From positions 1 to 64,000 of the forward strand of contig JACRCN010000071.1 of the NCBI GenBank assembly GCA_016219005.1: 64,000 nucleotides of DNA, read 5' to 3'. Origin of the DNA: Deltaproteobacteria bacterium. GTDB lineage: Bacteria; Desulfobacterota; Desulfobacteria; Desulfobacterales; SpSt-501. The position numbers and the translations under genes were made by a program. The notes under the pieces are model-generated. The model had not been told where the DNA came from. It saw only the letters and a program-made list of their open reading frames with translations, and did no database searches. Shown here in pieces: positions 58,971 to 59,622 of this stretch (position 1 is its first letter; every line of letters begins with the position of its first letter).

Positions 58971-59369
58971 TCAATCCGGATTCGGGGTGACATCCGGCTC
59001 GACCTGATAGGCGTTCGCAATGCGGTTGGTGCCGTTGAATACGTCCACCACGGCAACGATCTCACCGATGGCCTCGTTGTCCAATCCGAGCCGCTTCACG
59101 GCGGCGCTGTGGGAGTGGATTCAGTACTCGCAGTTGTTGGTGGCGGACACCGCCAGGGCGATGATCTCTTTGGTCAAAAGATCGAGCTTGCCCGGTTTCA
59201 TGACGGCTTTGAGCTTCTGCCAGGTCGCTTCCAGGTGGTCCGGATTGATCGAAAGCGCCTTCCAGAAATTGGGCACGAAGTCGATCTTCTTGGTGGTCAT
59301 GATGTCCTTGTAAACTTTTTTAACTTTGCCGGTGGCCTCCTTTTCCGAGACCGTTCGATAGAGAGCCAT
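58971..59369 (-). CDS. Carboxymuconolactone decarboxylase/AhpD-like selenoprotein (Sec83, TGA)
   Basis: A 132-residue AhpD/CMD-family protein read through an in-frame TGA at 59121-59123. Before it: FVPNFWKALSINPDHLE and KEIIALAVSATNNCEY; after it: IHSHSAAVKRLGLDNEAIGEIVAVVDVFNGTNRIANAYQVEPD. Together these are the usual family sequence in which the redox motif CxxC appears as CEY-U, and the downstream histidine (IHSH) is kept. A hairpin of bacterial SECIS geometry follows the TGA. The start has AAAGGAG at the right distance. Expected to be a peroxide- or thiol-handling redox protein. The alternative is a nonsense-mutated gene. Confidence 0.82.
59090..59105 (-). promoter_or_regulatory. Candidate bacterial SECIS hairpin
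   Basis: On the minus strand: GCCGC-CGTGAA-GCGGC, a perfect 5-bp upper stem with a 6-base loop that has G at its second position. Twenty bases separate the TGA from the loop. Lower pairing (TCC with GGA) can extend the stem. These values fit the usual bacterial SECIS pattern (about 16-37 bases from UGA to loop, G in the first two loop positions). Confidence 0.65.
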
Positions 59370-59622
59370 TGCGAAAACTCCTTTCGTTGTTCAACCCAAG
59401 CCGGTAACTAGTTGTGTCGACCCGGAGCAAGCCCGTAAAATGAGTTTACCAGAGAGGATCGGGGATGATCAATAGCGGGCCAATATAAAGATGCACAATT
59501 TTCAACTCCGTGCCAATCGCAAGGTGGGAAGGATGTCTCTTTCTAACGCACGTCGGTATTGATTGGAGGGCCGCCGGGTCGAAGGCCTCCTCAAGCTGCC
59601 GGCTCCGTTGGGCGAATAATGC

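Follow-up and report, generated by a model that had tools for sequence, protein, structure and literature searches.

Zhang et al. (2005; PMC1088965) described selenoproteins carrying a CxxU motif, both CMD-domain and AhpD-like, from the Sargasso Sea, and both types reappear in review tables of 2022 and 2026 (PMC9312934, PMC13188914), the latter of which lists one Sec each for the CMD-like and the AhpD-like selenoproteins (PMC13188914). The gene considered here lies in the window, i.e. the whole stretch of 64,000 nucleotides that was analysed, and shares with the CMD-like selenoprotein (PF02627; PMC1088965, PMC13188914) the CMD domain, the CxxU motif, a single predicted Sec and a SECIS-like hairpin just after the UGA. 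No difference of substance from that type, of which MBW1767730.1 is a public example, was apparent. With the AhpD-like selenoprotein (TIGR01926; PMC1088965, PMC13188914) the gene has the CxxU motif in common, but it is shorter and scores below the curated cut-off of that model. Because CxxU selenoproteins of the CMD/AhpD-like kind have been known since 2005 (PMC1088965), the gene would represent another member of a known selenoprotein type, and the statement in the original prediction that Sec occurs in some AhpD-like proteins agrees with this literature. Its interest lies in the correction of a gene that automatic annotation truncates ahead of the active-site residue, and in a natural series of Sec/Cys swaps inside one genus, in which the same enzyme can be compared with two chalcogens.

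The gene and its elements are located as follows:
59378..59384, minus strand: Shine-Dalgarno-like AAAGGAG, 8 nt upstream of the ATG, recognised from the sequence
58971..59369, minus strand: predicted CMD/AhpD-core selenoprotein gene, 132 codons plus a TGA stop, ATG at 59369-59367
59130..59132, minus strand: codon of C80, invariant in the alignment, putative resolving thiol partner
59121..59123, minus strand: in-frame TGA, codon 83, putative Sec codon (C80-E-Y-U83)
59109..59111, minus strand: codon of H87, within the motif E68-x11-C80-x-Y-U83-xxx-H87
59090..59105, minus strand: SECIS-like hairpin GCCGC-CGUGAA-GCGGC, 5-bp stem, 15-30 nt after the UGA
58971..58973, minus strand: terminating TGA, replaced in part of the relatives by TAA or TAG, with neither a conserved codon nor a conserved hairpin downstream in relatives

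The strand had not been named in the original prediction. Both the ORF listing and ordinary gene calling end the gene at 82 aa, leaving out U83 and H87, so the anticipated loss of the active site from an 82-residue annotation did occur. The read-through product (...NNCEY-U-IHSHSAAVKRLGLDNEAIGEI...) extends for 49 codons past the TGA. The downstream genes encode TfoX_N, GNAT and PLP decarboxylase proteins according to Pfam and suggest no pathway, the PLP-decarboxylase-like gene being the sole recurring neighbour, present also at the locus of the close relative G004 (L060) as judged by its opening residues. An Rfam search of the whole window gave no match.

The assignment to the CMD/AhpD family, made previously from the bare sequence, was upheld by a Pfam CMD match that spans the TGA (PF02627; residues 43-122, E 2.2e-19, 69.7 bits against a cut-off of 23) and by a match to the AhpD family core domain (TIGR00778) of 51.1 bits, above the curated cut-off of 27.8. 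The best NCBIfam match was the peroxidase-related model TIGR01926, which at 74.6 bits remained below its curated cut-off of 81.8 and covered the N-terminal half and the CxxU motif in a protein of 132 aa compared to 178 model positions; the AhpD subfamily model TIGR00777 scored 31.2 bits, below its curated cut-off of 191.95. The alignment with CMD-family proteins that had been proposed as a check placed the TGA, in 34 aligned sequences, at the active-site Cys of the family, namely the second Cys of the motif E-x11-CxYC-xxxH of the CMD/AhpD-core relatives, and Cys homologues exist, as the claim of a TGA at the redox Cys implied. E68, C80, Y82, position 83 and H87 are invariant in this alignment. 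The motif of mycobacterial AhpD, E-x11-C-x-H-C-x3-H, has the same spacing as that of this gene's family. An AlphaFold2 model (mean pLDDT 96) had its best PDB match in 2ouw (TM 0.89, 40% identity), an AhpD-core protein of Rhodospirillum rubrum that has the same CxYC-xxxH site, with Cys where this gene would have Sec.

We consider it very likely, from comparison of sequences, that codon 83 (UGA) is translated as Sec and that the gene encodes a CMD/AhpD-core selenoprotein of 132 residues. The earlier designation as a probable selenoprotein thus gains support from the alternation of TGA and TGC among relatives, from selection on the frame past the TGA, from the hairpin and from the presence of selA, selB and selD, the canonical selC being missing from the assembly. 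In the proposed mechanism the canonical SelB encoded on contig C89 would bind the hairpin just 3' of codon 83 and deliver a Sec-tRNA made by SelA and SelD. In the predicted all-helical AhpD-core fold, C80 and U83 would form a redox pair beside H87 and E68, with Sec replacing the Cys that adjoins the conserved His and is taken as the peroxide-attacking Cys. U83 might then attack a peroxide or disulfide, and C80 would resolve the selenenic acid as a selenenylsulfide, so that thiol/selenol-dependent peroxide reduction or a related thiol-disulfide exchange appears to be the likely function.

The hairpin had been predicted 20 bases past the TGA, and indeed its loop begins 20 nt and its stem 15 nt after this codon. 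It is a stem-loop shortly after the UGA with a G within the first two loop bases (loop CGUGAA), like bacterial SECIS elements. Among ten TGA orthologues the element is identical save for two G-U closing pairs (100% of cells paired), and it is disrupted in the TGC/Cys orthologues. The codons that it fixes, GCC for Ala, AAG or CAG for Lys/Gln and CGG for Arg, are found in all ten orthologues, and CGG makes up just 8-14% of the Arg codons in several of the hairpin-bearing genomes; the joint chance of this codon choice would be about 1e-12 if nine lineages were independent, a figure that kinship makes larger. On its own, the fold of this sequence stands out only modestly (z -1.9), and conservation provides the stronger evidence for the putative element. 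Covariation is uninformative in this gene's clade because four of the five pairs never vary.

The assembly containing the window (G000; 106 contigs, 98.5% complete) harbors selA (609 bits), a canonical selB on contig C89 (SelB1, 378 bits; 82% identity to that of the same-genus genome G001) and two selD genes, both with a TGA at their own active-site Cys. A second selB gene is 32% identical to SelB1; its origin from contamination is unlikely, as the same selB pair occurs in G004, and a literature search on genomes with two SelB gave no match. ARAGORN and Rfam both reported one tRNA-Sec in G000, on contig C100, which was rejected as a canonical tRNA-Sec because its structure and its neighbors identify it as a selC* tRNA-Cys. 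Therefore, of the machinery whose presence had been proposed as a check on the selenoprotein, selA, selB and selD were recovered, whereas the canonical selC was not found in the G000 assembly with the Rfam covariance model, with the G004 gene as query or with the G004 flanking DNA. Canonical tRNA-Sec genes were found in four genomes of the same genus (G001, G002, G003 and G004), two of which (G002 and the close relative G004) have both this tRNA and selC*. Since the copy of G001 sits right at a contig end, loss of selC from G000 through an assembly gap is plausible.

With the canonical selC not found in the G000 assembly and a selC* set present, translation of codon 83 as Cys is a live alternative to Sec, in which selC* tRNA-Cys(UCA), charged by the CysRS* and delivered by SelB*, would read the UGA. 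According to PMC7609411, which reviews Mukai et al. (2017), selC*/selB*/cysS* operons of Desulfobacterales encode a tRNA-Cys reading UGA. The corresponding region of G000 is:
C100:12719-14739, continuing to 19884 (L058): selC*, selB*, cysS*, HgdB-like gene, BadF-like ATPase gene, TGA-containing selD

The tRNA has the pair A1:U72, U73 as discriminator, a UCA anticodon and 8/4 stems, with 8 bp in the acceptor and 4 bp in the T-stem, from which an A bulges. The selB* gene (C100:12853-14739), directly downstream of selC*, has no detectable SelB-wing_2, and the CysRS (436 aa), which in such operons lacks the anticodon-binding domain, has a catalytic domain of 415 bits, matches DALR_2 over 33/57 positions and is truncated on its C-terminal/anticodon side. 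By these sequence features the set is assigned to the selC*/selB*/cysS* operons, with a predicted UGA-reading tRNA-Cys, sharing tRNA features and gene order with those described in Desulfobacterales (PMC7609411). Unlike the operon outlined there, that of C100 continues with the HgdB-like, BadF-like and selD genes, and no evidence ties it to the CMD gene. The fit of this set to the described features, the canonical selC missing from the G000 assembly and the Cys that relatives bear at the position of codon 83 favor translation as Cys. Against Sec stand also the presence of canonical selC in the relative G004 and the genomes of a distant TGA carrier outside the genus (L065; neither tRNA-Sec nor selC* found) and of a carrier of two TGA codons (L110; no tRNA-Sec found). 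However, selA and SelB1 are intact in G000, and G001 (87% complete) combines the TGA gene with SelB1 and a canonical tRNA-Sec, while neither selC* nor selB* was found there. Moreover, eight TGA carriers from outside the genus were tested, and seven of them (L061, L062, L066-L068, L076 and L083) come from genomes with a canonical tRNA-Sec and no selC* match, L065 being the eighth, and all eight have the same hairpin. That this hairpin is shared by genomes which have a canonical tRNA-Sec but gave no match to selC* marks it as a target of the canonical system, and we therefore regard Cys at codon 83, the main alternative, as improbable. As standard tools name selC* a tRNA-Sec and selB* a SelB, selenoprotein predictions for this genome should state which SelB reads which UGA.

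A second CMD paralogue was observed in G000 (L056; C33:35110-35385, minus strand) and G004 (L053; C148), with a TGA at CQYU and a hairpin of its own. Its orthologues in G001, G002, G003 and G005 have Cys; TGA was confined to G000 and G004, the two genomes in which a second selB over the cut-off was detected. It is conceivable, with a small probability, that a single cell of this lineage reads UGA in three ways, as stop, as Sec (SelB1) and as Cys (SelB* with selC*), and that the CMD gene or the C33 paralogue would be a site of Sec/Cys competition, perhaps set by selenium supply.

Returning to Sec at codon 83, evidence that the TGA is translated at all comes from the relatives. Within the genus, intact frames have TGA in G004 and G001 and TGC in G002 and G003, and nesting of the two TGC genes within the TGA clade suggests Sec-to-Cys reversion. 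In a wider scan with one genome per species (80 loci kept), TGA orthologues were found in MAGs labelled Desulfobacterales, Desulfohalobiaceae, Deltaproteobacteria, Bacillota, Planctomycetales and Methylomirabilota, and TGC or TGT occupied the codon in many more; a tree of 51 relatives, built with the site masked, required at least 4 changes of the Sec/Cys state. Compared to G004, 12 synonymous and 3 non-synonymous codons were counted past the TGA, and since changes are mostly synonymous after the TGA as they are before it, the frame is, on this codon evidence, under purifying selection beyond the TGA, in agreement with the conservation over 49 codons that had been noted earlier. That the TGA is instead a true stop or a decayed codon, leaving a pseudogene or an 82-residue protein, is in keeping with the end of ordinary gene calling at 82 aa and with the same-genus orthologue in G006 (L030/L051; G006:C325:2091-2415), in which the TGA is kept but the frame breaks right after it, the hairpin being lost together with some 24 codons, through either decay or an assembly error. 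However, TGA with an intact frame and mostly synonymous changes has been retained in at least 9 distinct lineages, and a truncated protein would be without U83 and H87, which makes this explanation very improbable. That a TGC or TGT turned into TGA through faulty sequencing or assembly, for which the TGC of G002 and G003 might speak, has a negligible chance and is refuted by separately assembled genomes from several phyla with the same TGA codon and the same hairpin. For practical purposes, the TGA/TGC alternation, the at least 4 Sec/Cys changes and the synonymous bias therefore rule out that the TGA is a simple stop or a sequencing error or that the gene is a pseudogene.

A second Sec at the end of the gene (TGA at 58971) was rejected for this gene's clade, since its relatives have TAG or TAA there, or a TGA followed by neither a conserved codon nor a conserved hairpin. 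A sister clade differs in this respect. Besides L154 (G270), which was left out as it has the same sequence as L122, 14 related loci carry the CxxU TGA and come from Gemmatimonadota, Zixiibacteriota, Chloroflexota, Deltaproteobacteria, a Loosdrechtia MAG and G117, a genome of the window's class. All sister-clade loci with an intact 3' end have a second TGA, preceded by KPWYG or a closely similar sequence:
L103, L104, L105, L110, L114, L120, L121, L122, L124, L128, L133, L134, L150: double-TGA CMD gene with its 3' flank

A Gly codon follows the second TGA in 12 of the 13 distinct ends and an in-frame stop comes next in 11, and a hairpin of the type GAATGC-CGTGA-GCATTC comes just after in all 13 (98.7% of cells paired; three of six pairs changed on both sides; no shuffle equally high). 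The internal hairpin of the sister clade covaries as well, a C-G to U-A exchange coupling a synonymous Ser change to Arg/Gln. The simplest reading of these sequences is a double-Sec CMD form with a C-terminal -G-U-G (KPWYG-U-G-stop) and a SECIS beyond the stop codon, which is apparently undescribed, the review table (PMC13188914) listing none. A sample of 395 genomes of the window's phylum yielded no new double-TGA member. If true, the double-Sec clade, with its G-U-G tail and the hairpin beyond the stop, would be a bacterial counterpart for comparison with C-terminal-Sec enzymes.

As separate observations, G117 (C1:59802-59889; L196) combines a double-TGA CMD gene with selC* and selB*, and no canonical tRNA-Sec was found in this 99% complete assembly. 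A conserved protein of about 170 aa with a CRFCPA-type CxxC motif, which gave no Pfam match above the cut-off in two members tested, is encoded near five double-TGA CMD loci:
L104, 5520-6041: CRFCPA-type protein
L110, 5561-6064: CRFCPA-type protein
L114, 4445-4987: CRFCPA-type protein
L122, 3109-3684: CRFCPA-type protein
L128, 6091-6609: CRFCPA-type protein
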